This document shows, one piece after another, positions 47,994-64,000 of a stretch of 64,000 nt of DNA. Made by a program: the position numbers and the translations under genes. The stretch is taken from positions 496,001 through 560,000 of the forward strand of contig NZ_JBBPEV010000001.1 of NCBI RefSeq assembly GCF_038069945.1. Direction: 5' to 3'. The notes under the pieces are model-generated. The model was not told the DNA's origin. It ran no database searches and saw only the letters and a program-made list of their open reading frames with translations. The first letter of the stretch is position 1, and each line of letters opens with the position of its first letter. The DNA is from Aquabacterium sp. A3 (GTDB lineage: Bacteria > Pseudomonadota > Gammaproteobacteria > Burkholderiales > Burkholderiaceae_C).

Positions 47994-48024
47994 CAAAAAG
48001 CCCAGCAGATTGCTCTGCTGGGCT
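47994..48024 (-). terminator. Rho-independent terminator of tRNA-Pro
   Basis: 11-bp stem AGCCCAGCAGA/TCTGCTGGGCT with a 4-nt loop, followed on the minus strand by TTTTTGTC. Confidence 0.9.
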
Positions 48025-48036
48025 CGTGTCCTTCAA

Positions 48037-48114
<78 letters not shown>

Positions 48115-48177
48115 CGAAGACTTGAACTATAGCATGTTTTGAGGCTTCAGCGCCAGCGCACCGCCCAGGTTGCTCGG

Positions 48178-48729
48178 TCACGACAACAAGTCGCGAATCG
48201 ACAACAAGGTGGCACGCAGGGCTGCAACCGCCTCAGGCGACGCCGCCTCCAGCCCCGTCAAGTCGGGCGCGGGCAGTTGCGAATCGGCCGACGCCAGACC
48301 GGAGGCCATCAACGGCTGTGATGCTGCATGCGCCCATGCCCCTGGGCGGGCGGGCAATCGGTGACCAGTGCCCACAGACCGATCGCGATCGACCACAGGC
48401 TCAAGCGCATCCGCAAGCCCTTCTTCGGTTTCGGGCTCCATGCCATGAACCGCCAACTCGTTGCGCGCGCCACTGATCGTGAATCCGCGTTCGTACAACA
48501 ACTCGCGTATGCGACGAATCAACAGCACCTCGTGGTGCTGGTAATAACGGCGATTGCCTCGGCGCTTCATGGGTCGCAGTTGCGCGAACTCCTGCTCCCA
48601 GTAGCGCAAGACGTAAGGCTTGACCAGGCACAGCTCGCTGACTTCACCGATGGTGAAATAGCGTTTGGCAGGGATGGGGGGCAACACCCCCTCGATCCGC
48701 CCGGACTCAGAGCGCTCGTGATTGGCCAT
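48178..48729 (-). CDS. MerR-family regulator adjacent to ihfA
   Basis: About 183 aa. The MerR DNA-binding domain is KRYFTIGEVSELCLVKPYVLRYWEQEFAQLRPMKRRGNRRYYQ; the C-terminal part is low-complexity with no metal-binding Cys. This gene commonly follows ihfA in betaproteobacteria and its target is unknown. ATG 48729 is used; a GTG at 48747 is possible. Confidence 0.88.
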   Translation of the reverse strand: MANHERSESGRIEGVLPPIPAKRYFTIGEVSELCLVKPYVLRYWEQEFAQLRPMKRRGNRRYYQHHEVLLIRRIRELLYERGFTISGARNELAVHGMEPETEEGLADALEPVVDRDRSVGTGHRLPARPGAWAHAASQPLMASGLASADSQLPAPDLTGLEAASPEAVAALRATLLSIRDLLS

Positions 48730-48797
48730 GGACAACTTGGGTTGCACCCGTCAGAAACTCCCGATCACCGGCGTGACCTGGGGCAGAACTTCGGACT

Positions 48798-49157
48798 TTA
48801 CTCCAAGTCCTCACCATCGGCGGCATCACCTTGCACCAGCCCCTTGAGCTTGGCGCTGGCGTGGAAGGTGACGACGTTACGGGCCTTGATGGGGATGGCC
48901 TCACCCGTGCGGGGGTTGCGCCCCGGGCGAGGTGCCTTGCGACGGATCTGGAAGTTGCCAAAGCCCGACAGCTTCACGTCACGACCTTCGACCAGGGTGT
49001 CGTTGATCAACTCGAAAAACGCTTCGACCATGTCCTTGGACTCGCGCTTGTTCAGGCCCAGCCGCTCGAACAACAGTTCGGACAGCTCGGCCTTGGTCAG
49101 CGTCGGCGTCTCGATGGACGGCAACAGCACCGTCAGATCGCTGATCTTGTCGTTCAT
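48798..49157 (-). CDS. ihfA: Integration host factor subunit alpha
   Basis: 119 aa. It contains [32 protein letters not shown] and the DNA-bending beta arm [19 protein letters not shown] with the intercalating Pro. It pairs with IhfB to bend DNA, including at sigma-54 promoters such as that of glnA here. It has a longer N-terminus than E. coli IhfA (about 15 residues more). GGGGAGGG precedes the ATG; it follows pheT by 19 bp, as in E. coli. Confidence 0.97.
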
Positions 49158-49176
49158 GGGCGAGCCCTCCCCTGGC

Positions 49177-51606
49177 TCACGCGCGCACCCGGGCGCCCAC
49201 GCGCTCCGACAGGCTGTTCAGCACGGCCTTCATCGCGGCGTCGATGCGCTCGTCGGTCAAGGTTTGCTCGTCGTCGCGCAGTGAGACCCGCACGGCCAAG
49301 CTGCGCTCATTGTCACCGATCCCGGCCACGGGCGTCTTGGGCTTGTAGATGTCGAACAAACGGGCGTCGCGCACCAGCCCCTCGGTGGGCGCCTCGTGGA
49401 TGGCGGCCATCAGGGCATCGAAGGAGGTTTGATCCGCCACCACCAGGGCCAGATCGCGGTGCACGGACTGCATCTTGGGCACACTGCTGAAGCGCGGCAC
49501 CTGACGCGCCGCCAAGGCGGGCACGTCCAGCTCGAACAGCACGGGCGCCTGCGGCAGGTCGTAGGCCTGACGCCACTTGGGGTGCAGCTCGCCAATCACG
49601 CCCACGGGCTGACCATCCAGCATCACCTGGGCGCAGCGGCCAGGGTGGAAGGCGGGGTGCTCGAACGGCACGAAGCGGGCCTCGCGTGGTGCCAGCAAGG
49701 CCTCCACATCGCCCTTCACATCAAAGAAATCAACCGGGCGCTGGGCCACACCCCACTGCACGGCGTCGGCAGGGCCATAAGCCAGGCCCGCCAGCTTCAC
49801 GGGCTGGTGCAAACCGGCCACGGTTTGTGCGCCATCGTTCACGCTGGCATCGCGCTGGAACACGCGACCCAACTCGAACACGCGCACGCGCTCGGCCTTG
49901 CGCGACAGGTTGGTGCACAGCACCTCCACCAGCGAGCCGATCAGCGTCGAGCGCATCACCGACAACTGGCTGGCGATGGGGTTCAGCAGCTGAATTGGCT
50001 GGGTATTGCCGGCAAAGTCGGCCTCCCAGCGGGCTTCCACAAAGCTGAAGGTGATGGCTTCCTGGTAGCCCCGGGCGGCCACCGCGCGGCGCACGGCATA
50101 CAGACCACGCTGAGCCTCGGGGCGCACCTCGGACACCACCGGCGCCTTGGGCGCGCGACGCGGCAGCTTGTCAAAGCCGATCACGCGCACGACCTCTTCG
50201 ATCAGGTCTTCTTCGATCTGCAGGTCAAAGCGCCAGCTGGGCGGGTTCACCACCAGGTGCACATCGCCATTCGTGGCCTGGGTCTGGAACGACAGGCCCA
50301 GACGCTGGAACACGCCTTCGCAGTCTTGCTGGCTCACGGGCATGCCGATCACGCGCTGGGCGCGCGACAGGCGCAAGGTCACCGGCGGGCGCTCCACCGG
50401 GCGCACCACCTGGTCGGTCACCGGGCCGGCGTCACCGCCGCAGATCTCCAGGATCAGCTGCGTGATGCGCTCCAGGTGCTGGGCCGTGGGCGCCGGGTCC
50501 ACACCGCGCTCGAAGCGGTGCGAGGCATCGGTCGAAAAGTTGTAGCGGCGTGCGCGACCAGCGATGGCCTTGGGCCACCAGAAGGCCGCCTCCAGGTAGA
50601 CGTTGCGGGTGTCGTCACCCACTGCCGTGCTGTCGCCGCCCATCACGCCGGCCAGCGATTCCACCTGCTGCGCATCGGCGATCACGCCCACCTGCTCGTC
50701 CAGCGACACGGTGTTGCCGTTGAGCAGCTTCAGCGTCTCGCCCGCCTTCGCCCAGCGCACCGTCAGGCCGCCCTGGATCTTGTCCAGGTCGAACACGTGC
50801 GAGGGCTGGCCCAGCTCGAACATGACGTAGTTGGAAATGTCCACCAGCGGCGACACGGGGCGCTGACCGCAACGGGCCAGGCGCTCGACCATCCAGTCGG
50901 GCGTGGCGGCCTGTGGGTTGACCCCGCGGATGACACGACCCACAAAGCGGCCGCACAGATCGGGCGCCGCCACCTGCACCGGCACCGTGGCGTCGATGGC
51001 TGGCTGCACCGGCTGCGTGGTCGGCAGGGTCAGCGGCGCGCCCGTCAGGGCCGACACCTCACGCGCGATGCCGGCCACGCTCAGGCAATGCGCCAGGTTG
51101 GGCGTGAGCTTGAGCGTGAACAGGGTGTCGTCCAGACGCAGGTGATCGCGGATGCTCACGCCCACGGGGGCCTCATCGGCCAGAATGTGCAGGCCATTGG
51201 ACTCTTCGGCAATGCCCAACTCTTTGGCCGAGCACAGCATGCCGAAGCTCTCCACCCCGCGCAGCTTGCCCTTCTTGATGACGAAGGCCTTGCCATCTGC
51301 CCCGGGGGGCAACTCGGCGCCCACCGTGGCGCAAGGCACCTTGATGCCCGGGCGCACATTGGGCGCCCCGCAGACGATCTGCAGCAACTCGCCCGTGCCA
51401 GCGTCCACCTTGCACACGTTCAGGCGGTCGGCATCGGGGTGCTTGGCCACTTCCATCACCTGGGCCACCACCACACCCGTGAAGGCAGGCGCCACAGGTT
51501 GCAGCTCTTCAACCTCCAGACCGGCCATGGTGAGCAGATCGGCCAGTTGCTGCGTGTTCAGATCAGGGTTGCAGAACGTGCGCAGCCAGGACTCGGGGAA
51601 TTGCAT
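49177..51606 (-). CDS. pheT: Phenylalanyl-tRNA synthetase beta subunit
   Basis: 809 aa, normal length. The N-terminal tRNA-binding (EMAP-like) domain spans about 40-150 ([26 protein letters not shown]). The B3/B4 editing domain, the B5 domain and the C-terminal ferredoxin-like anticodon-binding domain (residues about 715-809, [18 protein letters not shown]) are all present. It forms the alpha2-beta2 enzyme with PheS. An alcohol dehydrogenase gene separates it from pheS, which is unusual. Confidence 0.98.
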
Positions 51607-51652
51607 GGAGAAGATCCTCGGGGATTCGGTTCAGTGCTTGTGACAGCTCAAC

Positions 51653-52696
51653 TCATGGCGCCGCATCGGCGTCCAGCACCACGCGGTAGCGGGCCTTGCC
51701 GGCGCGCAGGTGGTCCAGGGCCTCGTTGATGCGGCTCATGGGGTAATGTTCGGTTTGGGGCTCGATGCCGTGGCGGGCGGCAAAGGCCAGCATGGTGTCG
51801 ATGTCCTGTCGCGAGCCGGTGGGCGAACCCGACACGCTGCGCTGCCCACCGATCAGCGGGAAGGCCTCGACCTCCATGGGCTGCGGCAGGATGCCGACCA
51901 GGTGCAGGCGGCCATTGGGCGCCAGCGTGCTCATCAGCGCCTTCCAGTTCAGCATGACGTTGACGGTGACGAGCACCATGTCCAACTGACCAGCCACGGC
52001 CTTCATCGATTTGGGATCGGTGCTGGAGACCACGCGATGCGCGCCCAGTGCCATGGCCTCGTCACGCTTGGACTCGCTGGAAGTGAAGGCCGTGACCTCA
52101 CAGCCCCAGGCCCGCGCGAACTTCAAGGCCAGGTGGCCCAGCCCCCCAATGCCCACCACGCCCACGCGGTGCACGGGCTTGATGTTGTGGGTGAGGAAGG
52201 GCGAAAACACCGTGATGCCACCGCACAGCAGCGGGCCGGCCTTGGCCGGGTTCAGGCCTTCGGGGATGGGGCAGGTCCACAGCCAGTGCGCCCGCACCCG
52301 ATCGGCAAACCCACCATGGTGGCCCACGATGGTGGGCTGCCCGGCGCGGCACAGTTGCGGCTCGCCACCCAGGCAACTGGCGCAGGCCATGCAGCTGGCG
52401 GCCATCCAGCCCACGCCCACCTTCTGGCCCAGCTTCAGGCCCTTGGTCTGGCCGCCCAGGGCCACCACGGTACCCACCACCTCGTGCCCACCCACGATCG
52501 GGTAGGCCGAGAATCCCCACTCGTTGTCGATCAGGGACAGGTCGGAATGGCACAGGCCACAGTGCTCCACCTGAATTTCCACTTCCTCCACACCCAGAGG
52601 GCCGGGCTCAAAAGTGAACGGCGTCAGAGGCTTGGCGGCCTCGTGGGCGGCCCAGGCGCGGATGGTGGTGGCGGGGGTGGCACTGGTGGTGGTCAT
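51653..52696 (-). CDS. Zinc-dependent NADP alcohol dehydrogenase (YahK/CAD-like) between pheS and pheT
   Basis: 347 aa medium-chain dehydrogenase. Catalytic zinc ligands are in HCGLCHSD (Cys) and GGHEVVG (His, Glu). The structural zinc site has Cys residues in SCMACASCLGGEPQLC. The coenzyme fold is VGVVGIGGLGHLALKFARA. It reduces aldehydes, likely NADPH-linked. It starts 10 bp after the pheS stop, with GAGGAT overlapping that stop, so it is translated by coupling to pheS; 46 bp separate it from pheT. It has no functional link to tRNA charging that I can see. Confidence 0.95.
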   Translation of the reverse strand: MTTTSATPATTIRAWAAHEAAKPLTPFTFEPGPLGVEEVEIQVEHCGLCHSDLSLIDNEWGFSAYPIVGGHEVVGTVVALGGQTKGLKLGQKVGVGWMAASCMACASCLGGEPQLCRAGQPTIVGHHGGFADRVRAHWLWTCPIPEGLNPAKAGPLLCGGITVFSPFLTHNIKPVHRVGVVGIGGLGHLALKFARAWGCEVTAFTSSESKRDEAMALGAHRVVSSTDPKSMKAVAGQLDMVLVTVNVMLNWKALMSTLAPNGRLHLVGILPQPMEVEAFPLIGGQRSVSGSPTGSRQDIDTMLAFAARHGIEPQTEHYPMSRINEALDHLRAGKARYRVVLDADAAP

Positions 52697-52706
52697 GCGG
52701 GCATCC

Positions 52707-53744
52707 TCAGTTGAATTGCTGCAAGAAACGCAGGTCGCCTTCGTAGAACAAACGAAGGTCGTTCACACCATAGCGCAACATGGTCAGGCGGTCCGGGCCC
52801 AGGCCAAATGCAAAGCCGATGTAGTGCTCCGGGTCCAGCCCAAAGTTGCGCACCACATTCGGGTGCACCTGGCCGGCACCGCCCACTTCCAGCCACCGGC
52901 CCTTCAAGGGGCCCGATGAAAAGGCAATGTCCACCTCAGCCGACGGTTCGGTGAAGGGGAAGAACGAGGGGCGGAAGCGGATGTCCAGCTCGTCGGTCTC
53001 GAAGAAGGTGCTGAAGAAATCGCCCAGCACCGCCTTGAGGTCGGTGAAGCTGACGCTCTCGCCAATCCACAGGCCTTCGCACTGATGGAACATGGGCGAG
53101 TGCGTGGCATCGCTGTCCACCCGGTAGGTGCGCCCTGGTGCGATCACTCGGATCTCGGGCATGCGCTCGCCGCGCGCCAGGGCCTCGGCATGGTCGCGCA
53201 CGTGCTGCATGGCGTAACGCACCTGCATCGGGCTGGTGTGCGTGCGCAGCAGGTGACCGCCTTCCACGTAGAAGGTGTCGTGCATGGAGCGCGCCGGGTG
53301 GTCTTCAGGCGTGTTCAGCGCGGTGAAGTTGTGCCAGTCGGTCTCGATCTCCGGGCCGTCAGCCACGGCAAAGCCCATGGAGCCAAAAATGGCCTCCAGG
53401 CGCTCAATGCTGAGCGAGACAGGGTGCAAACCGCCCTCGCCTCGGCGGCGCCCCGGCAAGGTCACGTCCAGTCGCTCGGCCTGCAGTTGCTGGGCCAGCT
53501 CGGCATCGGCCAGGGCTTGACGCCGGGCGTTCAGCAAGGCCTCGACCTGCTGCTTGGCCTGGTTGATGGCCGCGCCGCGGGTTTTCTTGTCCTCAGGGCT
53601 GAGGGCGGCCATACCCTTGAGCAGCTCGGTCAGGCTGCCGGACTTGCCCAGAAAGCGGGCCTTGGCGTTTTCCAGGTCGGCCGGGGTGGCGGCTTCAGCG
53701 AAGGCGGCCTGGGCCGATTGCACCAGTTGATCGAGGTCGTTCAT
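52707..53744 (-). CDS. pheS: Phenylalanyl-tRNA synthetase alpha subunit
   Basis: 345 aa. An N-terminal coiled coil ([22 protein letters not shown]) is followed by the class II core: motif 2 in [10 protein letters not shown], motif 3 in [17 protein letters not shown], and the Phe-binding [15 protein letters not shown] 53744 (MNDLDQL) fits the family. There is almost no Shine-Dalgarno: a terminator-like hairpin with an eight-T tract ends 12 nt before the ATG, which may control expression. Confidence 0.97.
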
Positions 53745-53756
53745 GGATTCGTGTCG

Positions 53757-53786
53757 AAAAAAAAGGCCAACCGTGGGGTTGGCCTT
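53757..53786 (-). terminator. Terminator-like hairpin immediately before pheS
   Basis: Perfect 10-bp stem AAGGCCAACC/GGTTGGCCTT with a 4-nt loop followed by eight T on the minus strand (53764-53757). It sits between rplT and pheS, where E. coli carries the PheM attenuator. No Phe-rich leader precedes it here. It could simply end the infC-rpmI-rplT transcript or act as an attenuator by another mechanism. Confidence 0.88.
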
Positions 53787-53865
53787 TGGATCACCGGCCA
53801 CCGGGTTGCCCACGGTGACGGCCGGTGCAGCATCTTGCTGTCTGCTGATCGTTCTGGCTGCCCGT

Positions 53866-54225
53866 TCAGGCGGCCAGTTGAGCCTTGGCCTTTTCCACGA
53901 TGCTGGCAAATGCAGCGGGATCGTTGACGGCCAGATCAGCCAGGACCTTGCGGTCGATTTCGATCTGAGCCTTCTTGATGCCAGCCATGAAGCGGCTGTA
54001 GGTCAGGCCCAGCGAACGGCTGGCGGCGTTGATACGAGCGATCCACAGACGGCGGAACTCGCGCTTCTTGGCGCGACGGTCACGGTAGGCATATTGACCT
54101 GCCTTCATGACCGCCTGTTTGGCGATGCGGTAGACGTTCTTGCGACGACCACGGAAACCCTTGGCCAGGGCGAGAACTTTCTTGTGACGAGCGCGGGCTG
54201 TTACACCACGTTTGACGCGAGGCAT
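53866..54225 (-). CDS. rplT: 50S ribosomal protein L20
   Basis: 119 aa. It begins [20 protein letters not shown] and contains [21 protein letters not shown], the standard L20 sequence. It binds 23S rRNA early in large-subunit assembly and usually represses its own operon. It follows rpmI by 54 bp. Confidence 0.98.
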
Positions 54226-54279
54226 GAGTGACTCCTTCGGCGTTGACTATCTGGACAAAAAGACGACGTGCTCAGCCGA

Positions 54280-54483
54280 TCACAGGCCGGCAAACGGCAG
54301 CATCTGAGCCATGTGGCCCATGTTGCTGTCATGCACGTTCACAGCACCACGCAGGTGACGCTTGTTCTTCGTGGTCTTCTTGGTCAGGATGTGACGCTTG
54401 AAGGCTTGACCGCGCTTGACGGTACCACCTGGACGCACACGGAAACGCTTGGCAGCGCTCTTCTTGGTCTTCATCTTGGGCAT
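54280..54483 (-). CDS. rpmI: 50S ribosomal protein L35
   Basis: 67 aa. It begins [20 protein letters not shown] and includes [16 protein letters not shown], the L35 signature. It lies between infC and rplT in the usual order. Confidence 0.97.
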
Positions 54484-54629
54484 GTTGATGCTCCTTATGG
54501 TTTGTTCCTACCAGGCGCCCGAAATACCACTTCCGGGTCTTGATGGCCTGCAGGCACTTGGATCCCGGATGGGGCGACCAAACCCCACCAGGGTGATGGC
54601 CCCGGTTGCCCGGCGCCATGTTCACAAAA

Positions 54630-55178
54630 TCACTTCTTCTTCTTCGGGCCGAGCACCATGATCATCTGGCGCCCTTCCAGCTTGGGCATGTTCTCGACCA
54701 CCGAGACATCCGTCAGGTCATCGCGCACACGCTCAAGCAGGCGCATGCCCAATTCCTGGTGCGTGATCTCGCGACCACGGAACCGCAGCGTCACCTTGCC
54801 CTTGTCGCCTTCTTCCAGGAAGCGCCGCAGGTTGCGCAGCTTGATCTGGTAGTCGCCCTCGTCCGTACCTGGGCGGAATTTGATTTCCTTGACCTCGATG
54901 ACCTTTTGCTTCTGCTTGGCATCGTGGGCCTTCTTTTGTTCCTGGTACTTGAACTTGCCGTAGTCCATCAGGCGGCAGACCGGCGGATCGGCCTGGGCCG
55001 AGATTTCGACCAGATCCACGTCGGCCTCGCCAGCCATGCGCAAGGCTTCCTGGATGCTGACGATGCCCAGCGGTTCGTTCTCAGGCCCGTTCAGACGGAC
55101 TTCGGGTGCGGTGATTTCGCGGTTCAGCCGGTGCTTGCGTTCGTCGTTGCGCGTCCGGCGGTCGAAAAAGTTAGCGAT
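54630..55178 (-). CDS. infC: Translation initiation factor IF-3 with ATC start codon
   Basis: 182 aa when started at ATC 55178. Continuing upstream of the first ATG (55043) the frame encodes the conserved IF3 N-terminus, reading [16 protein letters not shown] and [10 protein letters not shown]; no ATG, GTG or TTG fits. A GAGGAA Shine-Dalgarno lies 8 nt before the ATC. Rare AUU/AUC starts in infC allow IF3 to repress its own translation. The C-terminal domain has [12 protein letters not shown] and ends in GPKKKK. It separates ribosomal subunits and proofreads initiation. Confidence 0.92.
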
Positions 55179-55286
55179 GTCGAATTCCTCAGGCCACGGG
55201 CTTTTGCCCGAACCGGTTAACCAAGTTCACACGCGCCCAACGCGAAGGGGCGCCTCGTCCATTCCTGCCGGACAAAGCGCGGCCCC

Positions 55287-57206
55287 TCAGGCCTTGCTGG
55301 CGATGTCTTGAGAGATCTTCAGGGAGAAGTCGTCGAGTGACATCACACCGAGGTTCTGATTGCCCCGGGCGCGCACGGCGATGGTGCCGTCAGCCTTCTC
55401 CTTGTCACCGACAACGATGAAGTACGGCACCTTCTGCAATGCATGTTCGCGGATTTTATACGTGATTTTTTCGTTGCGCAAATCCAACTGAACCCTAAGT
55501 CCTTGTTTCTGCAACGTTTTGGCAATCTCTTGCGCGTAATCGGCCTGCGCATCGGTGATGTTGAGCACCACAGCCTGCACCGGCGACAGCCAAACCGGCA
55601 AGGCGCCGGCGTGCTGCTCGATCAAAATGCCGATGAAACGCTCCAGCGAACCCAGGATGGCGCGGTGCAGCATCACCGGGTGCTTGCGATCGCTGGATTC
55701 GGTCACGTACTCGGCGCCCAGGCGCTCAGGCATCGAGAAGTCAACCTGGATGGTGCCGCACTGCCAGTGGCGGCCCAGCGCGTCCTTCAGCGTGTACTCG
55801 ATCTTGGGGCCATAGAAGGCACCATCGCCTGGGGCGATGGTGAACTCGCTGTTCGTGGCTCGCAGGGATTCCATCAAGGCGTTCTCGGCCTTGTCCCACA
55901 CCTCGTCGGAGCCGATGCGCTTCTCGGGCCGCGTGGCCACCTTGTAGATGATGTCGGTGAAGCCGAAGTCGGCATACACCTTCTGCAGCAGGGCCGTGAA
56001 GTCCACGCACTCCTGCAGGATCTGGTCTTCGGTGCAGAAGACGTGGCCGTCGTCCTGCGTGAAGCCGCGCACGCGCATGATGCCGTGCAGGCCGCCCGTG
56101 GGCTCGTTGCGGTGGCACTGACCGAACTCGCCGTAGCGGATGGGCAGGTCGCGGTAGCTCTTGATGCCTTGATTAAAGATCAGGATGTGGCCGGGACAGT
56201 TCATCGGCTTGAGCGCGTAATCGCGCTTTTCCGACTCGGTGGTGAACATGTTCTCGCGGTACTTGTCCCAGTGGCCGGTCTTCTCCCAAAGCGTCTTGTC
56301 GATGATCTGCGGGCCCTTGACCTCCTGGTAACCGTTGTCGCGATACACCTGGCGCATGTACTGCTCCACCGCTTGCCACACCGTCCAGCCCTTGGGGTGC
56401 CAGAACACGACGCCAGGGGCGTGCTCGTCGATGTGGAACAGGTCAAGTTCGCGGCCCAGCTTGCGGTGGTCACGCTTCTCGGCCTCTTCCAGGCGGGTCA
56501 GGTACAGCTGCAGGTCGTCCTTGCTGGTCCAGGCGGTGCCGTACACGCGCTGCAATTGCTCGTTGCGGTGGTCGCCGCGCCAGTAGGCACCGGCCACCTT
56601 CATCAACTTGAAGTGCTTGAGCTTGCCGGTGCTGGGCACGTGCGGGCCGCGGCACAGGTCGGTGAAGGCGCCTTCGCTGTAGAGCGACACGTCCTGGTCG
56701 GCCGGGATGCTCTCGATGATCTCGGCCTTGTAGTGCTCGCCCAGGCTTTTGAAGTACGCCACAGCCTCATCGCGCGGCAGCACCTTGCGCTCGACCTTCT
56801 CATCCTTCTTGGCCAGCTCGCCCATCTTCTTCTCGATGGCTTCGAGGTCTTCGGGCGTGAAGGGGCGCTTGTAGGCGAAATCGTAATAGAAGCCGTCTTC
56901 GATGGTCGGGCCGATGGTGACCTGCGCCTCGGGGAAGAGCTCCTTGACCGCATAAGCCAGCAGGTGCGCGGTGGAGTGACGGATGATGTCCAGGCCGTCA
57001 GCGTCCTTGTCGGTGACGATAGCCAACTGCGTGTCACCGTCGATGCGGTAGGAGGTGTCGACCAGGCGGGCGGCGTCGCCCTGCCCCACCCGGCCGGCCA
57101 GCGCGGCCTTGGCCAGGCCGGTGCCAATGGAAGCAGCGACTTCGGCCACGGTAACCGGTTGAGGAAATTCTCGCTTCGAGCCGTCGGGCAGTTGGATGGA
57201 GATCAT
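55287..57206 (-). CDS. thrS: Threonyl-tRNA synthetase
   Basis: 639 aa, full length. TGS domain (about 1-60, [18 protein letters not shown]), second additional (editing) domain with [16 protein letters not shown], class II core with [13 protein letters not shown] (zinc ligand Cys) and [12 protein letters not shown], and the C-terminal anticodon-binding domain. A threonine-rich leader peptide, terminator and antiterminator lie in the 200 bp upstream, so expression is probably set by charged tRNA-Thr. It heads the thrS-infC-rpmI-rplT-pheS run. Confidence 0.98.
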
Positions 57207-57234
57207 GGGTGCTCAGCGTTGTGTTGATGGCAAT

Positions 57235-57261
57235 AAAAAAGCGCGGTGGGCGCCGCGCTTT
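57235..57261 (-). promoter_or_regulatory. thrS attenuator terminator
   Basis: 9-bp stem AAAGCGCGG/CCGCGCTTT with a 6-nt loop, followed on the minus strand by TTTTTTATTG, ending 28 nt before the thrS ATG. It is a strong Rho-independent terminator lying inside the thrS leader. Confidence 0.9.
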
Positions 57262-57291
57262 CTCAGGAAGACAAGATGCGAAAGCAGCGGC
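57252..57291 (-). promoter_or_regulatory. thrS antiterminator stem
   Basis: On the minus strand GCCGCTGCTTTC (57291-57280) pairs with GAAAGCGCGGC (57262-57252): 11 bp with one bulged U and a 17-nt loop. The second arm contains the 5' arm of the terminator, so only one of the two can form. Confidence 0.8.
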
Positions 57292-57298
57292 CAGCCGA

Positions 57299-57346
57299 CT
57301 AGACCTCGGACGAGGTGAGCGTGGTGGTCGAAGTTCGCGGTGTCAT
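57299..57346 (-). CDS. thrS leader peptide (threonine-rich, 15 aa)
   Basis: ATG to TAG encoding MTPRTSTTTLTSSEV, with six threonine codons (ACA, ACT, ACC, ACC, ACG, ACC) in 15 and three in a row. It lies about 57 nt after the probable start site and its stop is 8 nt before the antiterminator. AAAGG lies 11 nt upstream of the ATG, a rather long spacing. Together with the two competing stems this is the layout of a ribosome-mediated attenuator. Confidence 0.82.
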   Translation of the reverse strand: MTPRTSTTTLTSSEV

Positions 57347-57409
57347 AACCGAGCGTGCCTTTCTACGTTCCTTACCAGCGAGCCCATGAAGGGCGAACAA
57401 TGGACTGAA

Positions 57410-57415
57410 ATTATA
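57410..57415 (-). promoter_or_regulatory. -10 box of thrS promoter
   Basis: Perfect TATAAT on the minus strand. The -35 position falls inside the aceA terminator and has no consensus match, so the promoter may be weak or need an activator. Confidence 0.6.
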
Positions 57416-57430
57416 AGGCCTGCAATGAAA

Positions 57431-57450
57431 ACGGCGCCCGCAGGCGCCGT
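57431..57450 (-). terminator. Rho-independent terminator of aceA
   Basis: 8-bp stem ACGGCGCC/GGCGCCGT with a 4-nt loop and TTTTC following on the minus strand, 46 bp after the aceA stop. Confidence 0.85.
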
Positions 57451-57495
57451 CTTTGTTCAAGCCGGTCAGGCAACGGGCCTTGCGGCCCGCGCAGA

Positions 57496-58812
57496 TCAGT
57501 GGAACTGTTCTTCTTCGGTCGAGCCGGTCAGGGCCTTCACGGAAGACGAACCACCTTGGATCACGGTGGTCACGTCGTCGAAATAGCCTGCGCCCACTTC
57601 TTGTTGGTGCGACACGAAGGTGTAACCCTTTTCGCGAGCAGCGAATTCGGGCTCTTGCACCATGTTGACGTAGTGCTTCATGCCTTCGCCGCGGGCGTAA
57701 GCGTGGGCGAACTGGAACGTGTTGTACCAGTTGACGTGGATACCAGCCAGGGTGATGAACTGGTACTTGTAGCCCAGCGCCGACAGGTCTTCCTGGAAGG
57801 AGGCGATCTGCGAGTCGTTGAGGTTCTTCTTCCAGTTGAAGGAAGGCGAGCAGTTGTACGACAGCAGCTTGCCGGGGCAGGCAGCGTGCACGGCTTGGGC
57901 GAATTCACGGGCGAAGCCGATGTCAGGCACGCCGGTTTCACACCACACCAGGTCAGCGTAGGGGGCGTAAGCCACGCCACGGCTGATGGCCTGCTCCAGG
58001 CCGTTCTTCACGCGGTAGAAGCCTTCTTGGGTGCGCTCACCGGTGATGAAGGGCTTGTCGTTGTCGTCGCAGTCGCTGGTCAGCAGGTTGGCTGCTTCAG
58101 CGTCGGTGCGGGCCAGAACGATGGTGGGCACGCCCATCACGTCGGCAGCGAAACGAGCAGCGATCAGCTTCTCGATGGCTTCACGGGTGGGAACCAGCAC
58201 CTTGCCGCCCATGTGACCGCACTTCTTCACAGCGGCCAGCTGGTCTTCGAAGTGCACGCCGGCCGCGCCAGCGGCGATCATGTTCTTCATCAGTTCGAAG
58301 GCGTTCAGAACGCCACCGAAACCGGCTTCAGCGTCAGCAACGATGGGCAGGAAGTAGTCCACAAAACCTTCGTCACCGGGGTTGACGCCGCGGCCCCACT
58401 GAATTTCGTCAGCGCGCTTGAAGGTGTTGTTGATGCGGCGAACCATGGTGGGCACCGAGTCGTACGCGTACAGCGACTGGTCGGGGTACATGGTCTCAGA
58501 CGTGTTGCCGTCGGCAGCAACCTGCCAGCCCGACAGGTACACGGCCTCCAGGCCAGCCTTGGCCTGTTGCATGGCTTGACCGGCGGTGATGGCGCCGAAA
58601 GCGTTCACGTAGCCCTTCTTGGCACCGCCGTTGACCTTTTCCCACAGCTTTTCAGCGCCGCGCTTGGCCAGGGTGTACTCAGGCTGCAGGCTGCCGCGCA
58701 GGCGAACCACGTCAGCGGCAGAGTAGCCGCGCTTGACGAGCTTCCAACGGGGGTTTTCGGCCCAGTCTTTTTCCAGGGCAGCGATTTGCTGTTCACGGGT
58801 GAGTTGAGTCAT
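57496..58812 (-). CDS. aceA: Isocitrate lyase
   Basis: 438 aa. The active-site motif [14 protein letters not shown] contains the catalytic Cys; WVAADGN-like and WKKNLND segments match the family. It splits isocitrate to glyoxylate and succinate, the first step of the glyoxylate shunt used on acetate and fatty acids. No malate synthase or regulator gene is adjacent. It is monocistronic, with its own terminator. Confidence 0.98.
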
Positions 58813-58971
58813 GACGATCTCCGGGGGTTGGTGGGAGGTGCTAGAAAACCCGCAATTGTAGTCACAACTGAGGCGAACAGCAAAGACTTATGTCTTATAT
58901 AAGACACCCACCAAATCGGTGGTTTCAGCCGTGATGGACACGAGTCCCTCCACTTGGCCCAAAATCGGGCC

Positions 58972-61779
58972 ATGCTTAGCCCAGCCACCCAACGCCCCCT
59001 GTCCGTCCGCTCTGCCGCCTGGCTGACCGCCCTCTTGATGAGCGTGGCCGGTCACGCCAGCGGAAAAAGCTTTTATGAAGACGCGCTCCAGCGCTACGAG
59101 AACAAGGACTACGACGGCGCCATCATTCAGCTGAAAAACGCCCTGCAGAAAGAGCCCAATCAACTGGCGATCCAGTTCCAGATGGGGCTGGCCTTGCAGC
59201 AGACCGGCGATGCCGTGGGCGCAGAAGAAGCCTTGAGCGAGGCGTTGCGCCTGGGCATCAGCCGATCGGAAGTCGTGGTGCCCCTGGCGCAGACCTTGGT
59301 AGACCAAGGCCGACAGCGTGAAATGCTGGCCCACCCGCAACTCCAGCCCTCGGGATTGCCCGACAGGGTCACCCAGGAGTTGTTGCTGGTGCGCGCCAGG
59401 GCCTGGATGGACATGGGCTCGGCCCGCGAAGCACTGTCTTCCATCCAGCAAGCCCGAGCCATCGACCCCAGACAGGCTGAGAGCTGGCTCACGGAAGTAC
59501 CTTTGCGCATCCGCAATGGGCAGTTTGATCTGGCCATGCAGGCGGCGAACCGGGCACTCGAATTGTCCCCCGGGGATGCCGAAGCCTACTATGTTCGCGG
59601 CTCCGTGCACCACAGCGAAGGCCGCCTGGGACCGGCCATGGCCGACTACGAGCAGGCCCTCACCCTGGAGCGCGGCCACCGCGAGGCCCTGGTGGCCAAA
59701 GCGGGCCTGCAGATTGACAAAAAAGACTGGGCCGCCGCCCAAGAGACGCTGGCCCGGCTGAAAGAAAGCTCCCCCCGGGAGCCCAGAGGGGCTTACCTCA
59801 GGGCCTTGCTGGCACAGCAACAGGGCCGCACCGATGAAGCCCGCGCGGCGCTGCAGGAAATCACCAGGCTCGTAGACCCTGTGCCGGTGAATTTCCTGCG
59901 CTTTCGTCCTCAGACGCTGATGCTCAATGGCCTGGCGCACCACGGCCTGGGACAGTGGGCCAAGGCACGGCAGTACCTGGAAGCGGTGCTGAAGATTCAA
60001 CCTGGCAGTCCCGCCGTGCGGGTGGTGGCCGGGATTCACCTGAAGGAGCGCAACCCGGCTGCGGCCGTCCCGCTGCTGGAAGCCTATTTGCGCGCGCACC
60101 CGGACGACGGCATGGCGCTGACCTTGTTGGCGGCCGCCAACCTGGCCCAAGGCAAGTCGGCACGCGCCAGCCGCCTGCTGCAGGAGGCCTTGACCAAGGA
60201 AGATCGCCCGGAGTACCGCACCGCCCTGGGTCTGAGCTTCTTGCAAAGCGGTCAGCAGGCCGAAGCCATGAGCGAGCTTGAGAACGCCTGGCGCCGAGAT
60301 CCCAAGCAATTGCAGGCGGGCATGGCGCTGGCCAACCTGTACTCCCGGCAAGGGCAGCACAAAGAGGCACTCAAGGTCAGCAAGGAGTTGGTCAAACGCC
60401 ACCCCGAACATGCGCCTTTGCAGAGCCTGCTGGGCGATCTGCAAATGAAGGCCGGCCTCGCCGAGGAGGCGCGCAAGTCTTACGAAAGAGCCATGTCGCT
60501 GGCCCCCGACATGGCGGGCCCACAGTTGCAACTGGCCCGCCTGGACGTTCAGGCAGGCCAACTGGACGCGGCAGAGAAACGCCTCAATGACATGTTGCGC
60601 GAATCACCCCGGTTCAGCGACGCCATGGCCGAACTGGCCCGCATCCATGAGCGTCGCGGGCGCAACGATGAGGCCTTGCGGTGGCTGTTGCGTGCCCGCG
60701 AGACCAGCACCAAAGGTGATCTGCGCTGGAACCTGGCCCTGATGGAGTGGCACATGCGCCAGGGGCGCCTCAAAGACGCCCTGGAAGAGGGCAAGATTGC
60801 GCTGGCCAAGCAGCCCGAAAGCATCCCGGCGCTGCTGCTGCACGCCCGGATCCAGCTCGGCCTTGGCGACGCGCCTGGGGCGCGCGCAACGCTGGGCTCC
60901 GCCACCCGATTTGCAGAGTTCAACGCCAACACCCTCACCGAGGTGGCCCAGTTGCAATTCATGGCTGGCGACGTGGACGGTGCCGCCTACAGCCTGGAGA
61001 AGGCACTGAGCGACACCCCAGAGCACCTGGCAGCCCAATCCATGATGGTGCAAATCGAACTGCGCCGGGGCAATACCGCGCAGGCGGAGGCCAGAGCCCG
61101 ACAAGTCATCAAACAGTACCCCAAGAACGCCGCCGGCCATGGCCTGCTGGGTGATGTGGCCCTGAGCCGCAACGACCTGCCCCAGGCGGTGGCGGCCTAC
61201 CGCCAGGCGCACCAGGTCGAACCTTCCAGCGTGACCACCGTGGCCCTGACTGGATCGCTGGCGCGCATGGACGCCCGGCCGGAAGCCGTCAAAATTGCAC
61301 AGCAGCGACTGAAGCAGGCCCCCAGAGACCTGGCCACCCGCATGACGCTGGGCCACCTGCACGCCCAGATGGGGCGCTACGCCGACGCTGCGGCCGTCTA
61401 CCGAGAGGTGGTGAAACAACGCCCGCGGCACGTCGAAGCGCTCAACAGCCTGGCCAATGCCCTGCTCAAGCTCAATCATCCGGAAGCGTTGGCCACGGCC
61501 CGGGCGGCGCATGAACTGGCCCCGGAGAACCCGATGGTGATCGACACCTTGGGCTGGGTGTTCTTTAAGCAGGGAAAATTCGAGGAGGCACTCCCCCTTT
61601 TGCGGGATGCCCGACTGAGGGCCCCAGGCAACGCCGAGATTCGATACCACCTAGCCAGGGTGTTGACGGCGACTGGCAGAAAGAGCGAAGCTAAGCGTGA
61701 ATTGCAAGAAGCGTTGCGACTTGCTACAAAATTCGAAGGTGCCGACGACGCGAGAGCACTGCTGCAATCGTTGCAGTGA
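58972..61779 (+). CDS. prsT: PEP-CTERM system TPR-repeat protein PrsT
   Basis: 935 aa. A signal-like N-terminus (AWLTALLMSVAGHASG) is followed by about 20 tetratricopeptide repeats covering the whole protein, e.g. FYEDALQRYENKDYDGAIIQLKNAL near the start and LGWVFFKQGKFEEALPLLRDA at the end. Length and architecture match TIGR02917, the TPR protein that accompanies XrtA/exosortase loci with exopolysaccharide genes. It probably acts in the periplasm or at the outer membrane in exopolysaccharide export or assembly. ATG 58972 was chosen; a TTG six codons upstream is less likely. A PEP-CTERM protein gene follows in the same direction. Confidence 0.9.
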   Translation: MLSPATQRPLSVRSAAWLTALLMSVAGHASGKSFYEDALQRYENKDYDGAIIQLKNALQKEPNQLAIQFQMGLALQQTGDAVGAEEALSEALRLGISRSEVVVPLAQTLVDQGRQREMLAHPQLQPSGLPDRVTQELLLVRARAWMDMGSAREALSSIQQARAIDPRQAESWLTEVPLRIRNGQFDLAMQAANRALELSPGDAEAYYVRGSVHHSEGRLGPAMADYEQALTLERGHREALVAKAGLQIDKKDWAAAQETLARLKESSPREPRGAYLRALLAQQQGRTDEARAALQEITRLVDPVPVNFLRFRPQTLMLNGLAHHGLGQWAKARQYLEAVLKIQPGSPAVRVVAGIHLKERNPAAAVPLLEAYLRAHPDDGMALTLLAAANLAQGKSARASRLLQEALTKEDRPEYRTALGLSFLQSGQQAEAMSELENAWRRDPKQLQAGMALANLYSRQGQHKEALKVSKELVKRHPEHAPLQSLLGDLQMKAGLAEEARKSYERAMSLAPDMAGPQLQLARLDVQAGQLDAAEKRLNDMLRESPRFSDAMAELARIHERRGRNDEALRWLLRARETSTKGDLRWNLALMEWHMRQGRLKDALEEGKIALAKQPESIPALLLHARIQLGLGDAPGARATLGSATRFAEFNANTLTEVAQLQFMAGDVDGAAYSLEKALSDTPEHLAAQSMMVQIELRRGNTAQAEARARQVIKQYPKNAAGHGLLGDVALSRNDLPQAVAAYRQAHQVEPSSVTTVALTGSLARMDARPEAVKIAQQRLKQAPRDLATRMTLGHLHAQMGRYADAAAVYREVVKQRPRHVEALNSLANALLKLNHPEALATARAAHELAPENPMVIDTLGWVFFKQGKFEEALPLLRDARLRAPGNAEIRYHLARVLTATGRKSEAKRELQEALRLATKFEGADDARALLQSLQ

Positions 61780-61902
61780 GCCCGCCAGTTGGCGCCGGAT
61801 TCTGGTCACGTGCTTGAAATTTCATCAAAACGACGCTTTTAAAGGGTCTGATTGCTTTGGTATCAAGCGCAACACCATGATTCAACTTGCTTTTTGAACA
61901 TC

Positions 61903-62703
61903 ATGAAAAAATCAGCCCTTCAATCTCTGCTGGCCTTTGGTGTCTTCGCTGCCACCTTCGTGTCGCCAGCCTTGGCCGCCACCGACTGGAGCGCCAACTT
62001 CGGAGGGTGCGCACAAGGCACGATCGCCAGCGCAGGCAACTGGAGCAGCTCGCTGAACGCATCGTGCCCCCTCGAACAGGGGGGTGTGGACGTGAAGGCT
62101 GGTGCCATCGCCTGGAGCAGCTCGGCCTCGCCGAGCAACGCCGCCGTGGTGTCGTACGGCACCAGCGGCCTGGGCGTGATCTCGTCGCTCGACTCTGGCG
62201 CTACCGGCTCGCACGCCATTGACAACATCGGCCTGATGGATTCACTGGTCCTGAAGTTCAGCGACAACGTGTCCATCAATTCCGTGAAGGTGGGCTGGAA
62301 TGCCACCGACTCGGGCACCAGCAACAGCTCCGGCACCTACAACGACTCCGACCTGGCCGTGCTGGCCTGGGTGAGCGCCGACCCTGGCGACAATGCCAAG
62401 CCGCTGGACCTGACACCCTGGAGCGGCTGGCAGCTGGTGGCCAAGGTGCCCAACATCGGGTCACTGTCTGGCAATCAGGCCAGCTTCAGCAACGGCGGCA
62501 TCACCTCCAGCTACTGGATGATCGCCGCGTACACATCGGGTGATTACTGTGCTGACGCCTTCAAGCTGCTGGCGGTGGCAGGCACCAAAAGCGACACCAC
62601 CACGCCGCCTGGCAACCAGGTGCCCGAGCCTGCCTCGCTGGCCCTGCTGGGCGCGGTGGCCGTTGGTCTGGGTCTGAGCCGTCGGCGGCGTCAGGGCACC
62701 TGA
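61903..62703 (+). CDS. PEP-CTERM surface protein (XDP1-like)
   Basis: 266 aa. An N-terminal signal peptide (LLAFGVFAATFVSPALAA) and a C-terminal exosortase sorting signal, VPEPASLALLGAVAVGLGLSRRRR (Pro-Glu-Pro, hydrophobic helix, Arg cluster), frame a Ser/Gly/Asn-rich beta domain with three Cys. The block reading GLGVISS...HAIDNIGLMDSLVLKF...VGW...DSDLAVLAW resembles the exosortase-dependent surface protein family XDP1. It would be cut by an exosortase and exported to the surface. It follows prsT by 123 bp and ends at a strong terminator. Confidence 0.9.
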   Translation: MKKSALQSLLAFGVFAATFVSPALAATDWSANFGGCAQGTIASAGNWSSSLNASCPLEQGGVDVKAGAIAWSSSASPSNAAVVSYGTSGLGVISSLDSGATGSHAIDNIGLMDSLVLKFSDNVSINSVKVGWNATDSGTSNSSGTYNDSDLAVLAWVSADPGDNAKPLDLTPWSGWQLVAKVPNIGSLSGNQASFSNGGITSSYWMIAAYTSGDYCADAFKLLAVAGTKSDTTTPPGNQVPEPASLALLGAVAVGLGLSRRRRQGT

Positions 62704-62718
62704 GCCGACCGGCGCAGC

Positions 62719-62746
62719 AAAAAGCCCCGCATCGCGGGGCTTTTTT
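62719..62746. terminator. Bidirectional terminator between PEP-CTERM gene and ppa
   Basis: Stem AAAAAGCCCCGC/GCGGGGCTTTTTT with a 3-nt loop; T-runs on both strands, so it ends both convergent transcripts. Confidence 0.95.
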
Positions 62747-62786
62747 CATGGCCCCACCAACGGGGGCCAGGAGCGACTCAGCGCCA

Positions 62787-63323
62787 TCAGTGGCCCTTGT
62801 CCGCAAAGGCCTTCAAGCCCGTGCGCACCTCGTCCTTGGCGGCTTCGATGCCATCCCAGCCCACGACCTTCACCCACTTGCCGGGCTCCAGATCCTTGTA
62901 GTGCTCGAAGAAGTGCTTGATCTGGCTCACCAGCAGTTCGGGCAGGTCTTCCATCGACTGGATGCCCTTGTACATGGCGCAGATCTTCTCGGTGGGAACA
63001 GCCACCAGCTTGGAGTCACCGCCGGCCTCGTCTTCCATTTTCAGGATGCCCAAAGGACGGCAGGGAATGACCACGCCGGGCTGCAGCGGGAACGGCGTGA
63101 CCACCAGCACGTCCACGGGATCACCGTCGGCGGCGATCGTCTGGGGCACGTAGCCGTAATTGCAGGGATAGTGCATGGACGTGCCCATGAACCGATCCAC
63201 GAAGACGGCACCGGTTTCGTGATCGATCTCGTACTTGATCGGATCAGCGTTGGCAGGAATTTCGATGATGACGTTGAAGACATCAGGCGCCTTGGCGCCA
63301 GCAGGTACGTTCAGCAGGCTCAT
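62787..63323 (-). CDS. ppa: Inorganic pyrophosphatase
   Basis: 178 aa family I soluble pyrophosphatase. Active-site residues appear in [25 protein letters not shown] and [12 protein letters not shown]. It hydrolyses pyrophosphate to drive biosynthesis. ATG 63323 (MSLLNVPAG) was chosen over one five codons upstream, as relatives begin near this residue. Confidence 0.97.
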
Positions 63324-63474
63324 GGAGGGGCTCAACAAGTTGTAGATCGGTTCAAGCCCTCAAGTGTAGGCCAGGCGACCCTGTGTTGGACACCACGCGC
63401 GCAGCTTGACACCCCGTTCGCGGAGGTGGCCAGCACGACAGAAACACTTTTTTGCTGCGCCGCACAAAAAACAC

Positions 63475-63502
63475 TTGCAATCCGATTCAGGATCCATATA
63501 CT
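63475..63502 (+). promoter_or_regulatory. Sigma-70 promoter of the phasin gene
   Basis: -35 TTGCAA and -10 TATACT with a 16-bp spacer, about 68 bp before the phasin start. A near-palindrome TTTTTTGCTGCG/CCGCACAAAAAA lies just upstream. Confidence 0.7.
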
Positions 63503-63510
63503 AAGAGTCA

Positions 63511-63536
63511 TGTTGCAACGCAGCATTCATGCAACA
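63511..63536. promoter_or_regulatory. Inverted repeat at phasin transcription start, candidate PhaR operator
   Basis: TGTTGCA, 12 bp, TGCAACA: a perfect 7-bp dyad spanning the predicted start of transcription. The position is typical for repressor binding, and phasin genes are commonly controlled by PhaR, but no PhaR gene is in view. Confidence 0.5.
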
Positions 63537-63569
63537 AGCCACTGATCATCAACCTTGACGGAGATCCAC

Positions 63570-64000
63570 ATGCTGACCGCTGAACAACTGATGGCCGCCC
63601 ACAAAGCCAACATCGCCACCCTGTTTGACCTGAGCCAAAAGGCTTTTGAAGGCGTGGAAAAGCTGGTCGAACTGAACATGCAGGTTGCCAAGACCTCGAT
63701 GGACGAAGCTGCCGAGCATGCCAAGGCCGTGATGGCTGCCAAAGATCCTCAAGAACTGATGGCGCTGCAGGCTTCCCTGCTGCAGCCCTCGGCTGAGAAG
63801 GCTGCCGCTTATGGCCGTCATCTGTACGACATCGCCTCGAGCACCGGCAGCGAAGTGAGCAAGCTGGCCGAGTCCCAAGTGGCAGATGCCCAGAAAAAGT
63901 TCATGTCGGTGGTGGACAACGCCGTCAAGAATGCCCCTGCCGGCACTGAAAACGCTGTGGTGCTGGTGAAGTCGGCTGTGGCCGCCGCCAACAACGCTTT
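63570..64000 (+). CDS. Phasin family protein, 3' end cut by window edge
   Basis: The first 143 codons are visible; the frame runs off the right end. It begins MLTAEQLMAAHKANIATLFD, with SQKAFEGVEKLVELNMQVAKTSMDEA and later HLYDIASSTGSEVSKLAE, the phasin_2 pattern of amphipathic helices. It coats polyhydroxyalkanoate granules. GGAG lies 7 nt before the ATG, and a promoter and dyad precede it. Confidence 0.92.
   Translation, partial: MLTAEQLMAAHKANIATLFDLSQKAFEGVEKLVELNMQVAKTSMDEAAEHAKAVMAAKDPQELMALQASLLQPSAEKAAAYGRHLYDIASSTGSEVSKLAESQVADAQKKFMSVVDNAVKNAPAGTENAVVLVKSAVAAANNA

Follow-up and report, generated by a model that had tools for sequence, protein, structure and literature searches.

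Leader-peptide attenuators are known for the trp, his and thr amino acid operons of E. coli, and E. coli pheST is an aminoacyl-tRNA synthetase operon that is attenuated through the pheM leader. In Firmicutes, thrS carries a T-box riboswitch that binds uncharged tRNA-Thr directly and switches a terminator without a leader peptide. A 2010 survey by Lopatovskaya, Seliverstov and Lyubetsky reportedly treats attenuators of amino acid and aminoacyl-tRNA operons and may include, or predict, a leader of thrS; among the papers that our searches found, no title or abstract opening describes a Thr leader before this gene. Leader-peptide attenuators of amino acid operons are among the subjects discussed in PMC1183508, and the part of PMC7373986 that deals with E. 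coli thrS describes translational control, in which ThrRS binds a tRNA-like hairpin (the operator) on the thrS mRNA.

We analyzed the region upstream of thrS in a 64,000-nucleotide stretch of the Aquabacterium sp. A3 genome (3.83 Mb), which we call the window. Between aceA and thrS the minus strand carries, in this order, a TATAAT box, a GAAAGG motif, a leader ORF, regions 2 and 3, and a terminator, with the following coordinates:

58812-57496, minus strand: aceA, isocitrate lyase, ending at 57496 upstream of thrS
57410..57415, minus strand: TATAAT, −10-like box, read directly; predicted transcript start near 57403
57358..57363, minus strand: GAAAGG, Shine-Dalgarno-like motif of the leader ORF
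57299..57346, minus strand: leader ORF MTPRTSTTTLTSSEV, from ATG at 57346 to TAG, with six Thr among 15 codons
57332..57350, minus strand: core GGTTATGACACCGCGAACT, leader start codon and codons 1-5
57338-57334, minus strand: GCGAA, proposed region 1, within the core
57280..57291, minus strand: region 2, GCCGCTGCTTTC (GCCGC-T-GCTTTC, one T bulged), putative antiterminator 5′ arm, complementary to 57262-57252
57278..57282, minus strand: TTCGC, possible partner of GCGAA in a third stem, read directly
57252..57262, minus strand: region 3, GAAAGCGCGGC, putative antiterminator 3′ arm, overlapping the terminator 5′ arm
57235..57261, minus strand: predicted terminator AAAGCGCGG-CGCCCA-CCGCGCTTT with six T at 57240-57235, from a scan (shorter stem) and folding
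55287..57206, minus strand: thrS, threonine--tRNA ligase, 639 aa (TIGR00418 equivalog, 733.7 bits against a cut-off of 383.65)

The first-pass annotation of this DNA had described an ORF of 15 codons, six of them for Thr, a terminator of 9 bp with six T just before thrS, and an 11-bp antiterminator that uses the 5′ arm of that terminator. All three were recovered: the ORF at 57346-57299 on the minus strand, the terminator as nine pairs spanning 57261-57238 (−14.1 kcal/mol folded alone), and the antiterminator as 11 pairs (−16.7 kcal/mol for the stretch folded alone, with two further pairs inside). The two hairpins have the nine bases 57261-57253 in common and are therefore mutually exclusive. 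The TATAAT box that the annotation placed ahead of all elements is present at 57415-57410, 69 nt upstream of the leader ATG, but stands without a recognizable −35 element, since a promoter scan of 57000-57600 gave no σ70-like hexamer pair. Among relatives, 134/175 sequences (shuffled expectation 14.6) have a −10-like hexamer (at least 5/6 positions) at 28-90 nt upstream of the leader ATG, most commonly at ~48-51 nt.

Sequence and comparison together show that the leader ORF is rich in Thr and constrained as coding sequence, that a terminator-like hairpin precedes thrS, and that an alternative pairing takes the 5′ arm of this hairpin. We consider it very probable that thrS is under ribosome-mediated transcription attenuation that senses charged tRNA-Thr; the stalling, termination and induction of thrS set out below are what we infer from this arrangement. 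When Thr-tRNA is plentiful, the ribosome would reach the leader stop codon, which lies 7 nt before region 2, so that region 2 would be masked and the terminator would form. When Thr-tRNA is scarce, through low threonine or low ThrRS, the ribosome would stall in the Thr codons and cover region 1; region 2 would then be free to pair with region 3, and RNA polymerase would enter thrS and perhaps the genes beyond. If the leader were untranslated, region 2 could pair with the start of the leader or with the ribosome-binding site there, leaving the terminator free to form. Because ThrRS itself makes charged tRNA-Thr, such an attenuator would be a feedback loop. The earlier proposal that scarcity of Thr-tRNA stalls the ribosome and turns thrS on is supported, as a reading of the sequence, by the conserved Thr leader and the mutually exclusive arms.

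The predicted thrS attenuator resembles those of E. coli trp, his and thr in its short leader rich in cognate codons, in the terminator before the gene, in an antiterminator that takes a terminator arm, and in a stop codon just before region 2. It differs from them in that the gene is an aminoacyl-tRNA synthetase, so that the loop would close on charging itself, and in that the leader start region is nearly invariant in nucleotides. With E. coli pheST and pheM it would share attenuation of a synthetase as well as the neighborhood thrS-infC-rpmI-rplT-pheST, but there Phe codons precede pheST whereas here Thr codons precede thrS. Like the T-box of Firmicutes thrS, it would switch a terminator by tRNA-Thr charging, and like the E. 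coli ThrRS operator it would adjust thrS expression to tRNA-Thr. A search of 48000-64000 with Rfam 15 gave no T-box or Thr-leader match up to E = 5; it returned one tRNA and seven unrelated matches below gathering scores. The thrS leader thus appears to be a member of a well-known kind of regulator without a family in Rfam 15.

Terminator-like hairpins can also belong to a preceding gene, and aceA ends at 57496. The hairpin before thrS might then be merely the 3′ terminator of the upstream gene, with the ORF and the antiterminator there by chance. We regard this as extremely unlikely: aceA is followed by a separate hairpin (57450-57431), although the T run of this hairpin on the minus strand is short (the scan scored the other strand), and both the −10 box and the conserved leader come after it. 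In other families, Thr leaders are also found downstream of a tRNA-like gene (tRNA recognized by eye).

For comparison, 257 thrS upstream regions were collected, the window included. They comprise 30 regions from 41 relatives (38 with a match), 29 + 118 stretches from 150 genomes of the family (148 with a match), and the best 80 of 368 from named GTDB genomes (among the named genomes, an uncultured Aquabacterium shows the top thrS N-terminal identity to the window, 93%). We used counts of unique sequences where it matters, because some named and unnamed loci represent the same organism. A leader beginning with MTPRT is present in 188/257 regions (177 unique leaders). Another ORF with Arg-Thr near its start is found in 35/257, several of which look like chance (for example L016, L051 and L072), and no M..RT-type ORF was found in 34/257 upstream regions, 18 of these 34 belonging to the same family. 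A predicted terminator lies 3′ of the leader in 211/223 leader-bearing loci. The core pattern GTTATGACACCGCG.AC occurs as one copy in each of 116/150 family genomes (reversed pattern, 0/150) and is present in 116/148 thrS upstream stretches of family genomes; therefore each copy precedes thrS. The genome of the window has a single exact copy of the core and one more site at three mismatches (control, two such sites), and the leader was unmatched in 72,556 plasmid records.

Past codon 5 the leader residues vary widely. In the 172 unique leaders with a terminator found, Thr nevertheless makes up 446/1566 of these codons in frame, vs 20/1394 and 39/1394 in the two shifted frames. We aligned the sequence of the window with those of 23 near relatives; in these 24 close sequences the leader varies in length by whole codons only: the distance from the leader ATG to region 2 is 44, 47, 50 or 53 bases, one phase throughout. 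The spacer 3′ of region 2 spans 25 to 42 bases and takes all three phases (11, 8 and 5 sequences). GAAAGG is identical in 24/24 of these sequences, the window among them (mean pairwise identity 100%), followed by region 4 (99%), the core (98%), region 3 (94%), region 2 (87%) and codons 6-12 (69%), with the loop at 45% and the spacer at 31%. Conservation of the Thr codons across relatives, which the first-pass annotation had put forward as a check on its reading, thus proved strong, in the MTPRT leaders of 188/257 regions, in the in-frame Thr and in the whole-codon length changes. By these comparisons, the leader arrangement is beyond chance. The same-genus genome L016, which was excluded from the alignment because its leader is degenerate, keeps the terminator but has lost the leader core, the Thr codons and the frame; ATGACGCCC remains (judged partly by eye).

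The start of the leader is conserved at the level of individual codons. Of the 177 unique MTPRT leaders, 176 have ACA as codon 2, all 177 have CCG as codon 3 and 167 have CGA as codon 4, while codon 5 is ACT in 155 and ACG in 22; GGTT stands right before the ATG with few exceptions. In eight genes of the window, ACA and ACT account for 2/170 and 5/170 Thr codons and CGA for 17/276 Arg codons. The sensitivity of the switch may be tuned by having the rare ACA and ACT at fixed positions. According to theory presented in PMC1183508, which codon serves regulation best is a matter of how isoacceptors are supplied and used, and not of rarity alone. The thrS leader fixes ACA at position 2 and ACT at position 5, both rare in the genes of the window; in the thr leader of E. 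coli, by contrast, ACC occurs eight times, as given in the same source (PMC1183508).

Arrest by the nascent peptide MTPRT, in place of stalling at hungry Thr codons, would accord with residues 1-5 being nearly invariant in the MTPRT leaders (the set is defined by them), and their codons as well. The conservation, however, is at the nucleotide level with synonymous positions included, other families retain only Arg-Thr and then Thr, and a nascent peptide of five residues is too short to fill the exit tunnel; we judge peptide-driven arrest highly improbable. Against attenuation itself stands the point that near-invariant codons 2-5 at synonymous positions are more than the mechanism needs. The stretch is conserved at synonymous positions and in its rare codons across much of the family, and we also entertain, as a rather unlikely extension of attenuation, that GGTTATGACACCGCGAACT does more than act in cis. 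The terminated leader RNA of ~170 nt might be a trans-acting small RNA, or a further factor might bind the stretch at the start codon, so that leader translation would be a second sensed input. As observations on the stretch itself, its near-invariance in MTPRT leaders exceeds the need of peptide or antiterminator, and GGT and ACC within it could pair to form a small hairpin that encloses the start codon (by eye).

We also compared the proposed pairings with shuffled sequences. The whole leader of the window folds no better than its own shuffles (z −0.71). The third competing stem of the first-pass annotation, GCGAA with TTCGC, is there in letters but comprises only 5 bp, and shuffles match or beat it in ~86% of trials (p 0.865). 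Measured against shuffled spacers, duplex energies reach the 5% level in only 15% (1:2) and 29% (2:3) of 205 sequences, the sequence being G+C-rich. Motifs pairable with the terminator arm (GTTCGCGC, GTCCGCGC, GCCGCGC and GCCGC-N-GC) lie behind the leader stop in 123/178 unique sequences (simple shuffles, 3.7). GTTCGCG, which is exactly complementary to leader CGCGAAC, is found in 43/178 (shuffled, 1.15); the patterns in both counts were picked after the data had been seen. In sequences of the GTTCGCGC form, a single segment has two alternative partners, the leader and the terminator arm GCGCGGAC; leaders of this type, for example L086, would have the textbook 1:2, 2:3, 3:4 arrangement.

In the 122 sequences with a helix of at least 5 bp (the 56/178 without such a helix being left out), the base after GCGCGG is able to pair with region 2 in 82/122, and in 22, 31 and 2 of 122 when the register is slid. 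For stem 1:2, a flanked helix at codon 4 is present in 93/178, with the central base paired in only 58/93. On a tree of 53 sequences, the terminator base after GCGCGG changed 10 times and its partner 6 times. No more than three independent pairs fall on supported branches (10 on all branches), with the partner mostly unchanged in the supported ones, so that the changes are too few to decide. Counts of terminator pairs are no evidence for covariation, because the finder demands full pairing. For the two stems across relatives, conservation of arm sequence (87, 94 and 99% vs 31% in the spacer) and region 2 motifs in 123/178 speak for the annotation; the tree, with at most three pairs on supported branches, gives no support for compensatory change.

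Thirty-two loci were hand-picked for a recognizable leader, and in each we took the best helix that joins the leader start to the post-stop stretch; p ≤ 0.05 was reached in 11/32 loci (window, p 0.865) and in 8/21 of those outside the MTPRT/MTPLT group. The leader start and its ribosome-binding site are thus pairable with the post-stop region in several families, which suggests that RNA structure there matters. This would also suit a leader that works on translation or mRNA decay, with the stalled ribosome opening or protecting the start region of thrS. Such a mode of action is nonetheless quite unlikely, as a G+C-rich hairpin with a T run stands behind the leader in 211/223 loci, as would be expected of a terminator, and it is precisely the 5′ arm of that hairpin that the antiterminator takes up.

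To see how far the predicted attenuator reaches, we searched 60 loci from other families of the same GTDB order. A short ORF with CGAAC (Arg-Thr) and further Thr codons precedes thrS in 14/60 loci, from 13 families, vs 5/60 in the antisense control, three of these five inside a tRNA-like gene; this stricter criterion was adopted after the data had been seen. With the demand for CGAAC dropped from the same test, the count is 15/60 vs 13/60 antisense, and a looser Thr-cluster criterion, with 16/60 vs 13/60 antisense, is hardly above its control. The remaining 46/60 loci do not pass the CGAAC test, and some of them still show MTPRT or MTPLT (L268, L301, L309, L261 and L311). Leaders that pass in other families include MFRTSTTTQS, MSFRTTTTGTLNQG and MFKRTTTTRISR. 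Genera with a leader in the sample include Acidovorax, Delftia, Roseateles, Cupriavidus and Undibacterium, with an MTPRTTT leader in the Cupriavidus genomes, and divergent leaders occur in Achromobacter (ARTTTRNFRPMSR), Caballeronia (MARRTLTETTSERR) and Chromobacterium (RTTTTRHTHES).

Outside the order, we examined 20 Gammaproteobacteria, mostly the better-scoring of 113 genomes from a class-wide search. The CGAAC leader test was positive in 0/20 of them (antisense, 1). A hairpin of 6-7 bp resembling the ThrRS operator was found 28-69 bases before thrS in 11/20 (L321, L322, L324, L326, L328, L329, L332-L335 and L338), with loops that resemble the tRNA-Thr anticodon (CGU or GGU), for example CTCGTAT and TTGGTAG. 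The same search found it in 0/257 and 0/60 loci of the betaproteobacterial set (0/317, window included; shuffled expectation 0.25 each).

Control of the E. coli type, in which ThrRS would bind at the ribosome-binding site to a hairpin resembling tRNA-Thr and the Thr-rich ORF would be incidental, has a precedent in E. coli thrS, in what PMC7373986 says of it, and in the 11/20 Gammaproteobacteria outside the order. For the window and its relatives it is very unlikely: the anticodon-loop hairpin is absent from the 317 betaproteobacterial-set loci, in which the predicted system differs from the E. coli operator, and Thr codons are enriched in frame only.

If attenuation by the Thr leader is correct, a large part of the betaproteobacteria would set the level of ThrRS by translating Thr codons, and one regulatory task at thrS would have changed hands, between an RNA-binding enzyme and an attenuator read by the ribosome. 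With roughly half of the few other members sampled from the GTDB class (11/20) showing a tRNA-mimic operator, thrS would offer a testable case of regulator swap. The interest of the predicted system lies in its breadth, in the near-invariant start region, and in the contrast with the operator-like hairpin of other Gammaproteobacteria.

The genes of the window follow one another on the minus strand in the order aceA, thrS, infC, rpmI, rplT, pheS, an aldehyde reductase gene and pheT, those downstream of thrS being placed as follows:

54630..55043, minus strand: infC (IF-3), up to the furthest standard start codon (TIGR00168)
54280-54483, minus strand: probable rpmI, named from its sequence
53866-54225, minus strand: rplT, equivalog match
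downstream of rplT, minus strand: pheS and pheT, equivalog matches
51653-52696, minus strand, between pheS and pheT: aldehyde reductase gene (NF047908, 572 bits)

In infC, the match to the IF-3 model starts at the first TTG, which corresponds to profile position 35. Because the TIGR00168 match begins only there, the true start probably lies upstream of 55043 at a non-standard codon. Between rplT and pheS, a terminator-like hairpin AAAGGCCAACC..GGTTGGCCTTTTTTTT is seen at 53787-53757 on the minus strand; no convincing Phe-rich leader was seen before this pheS hairpin in the window (by eye). A tRNA-Val-like gene (by eye) stands immediately upstream of thrS in many of the beta- and gammaproteobacterial loci (L260-L319 and L320-L339), the place that aceA occupies in the window. 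A close homologue of the aldehyde reductase lies within ~9 kb of thrS in several same-genus genomes (G001, G007, G008, G011 and G013).
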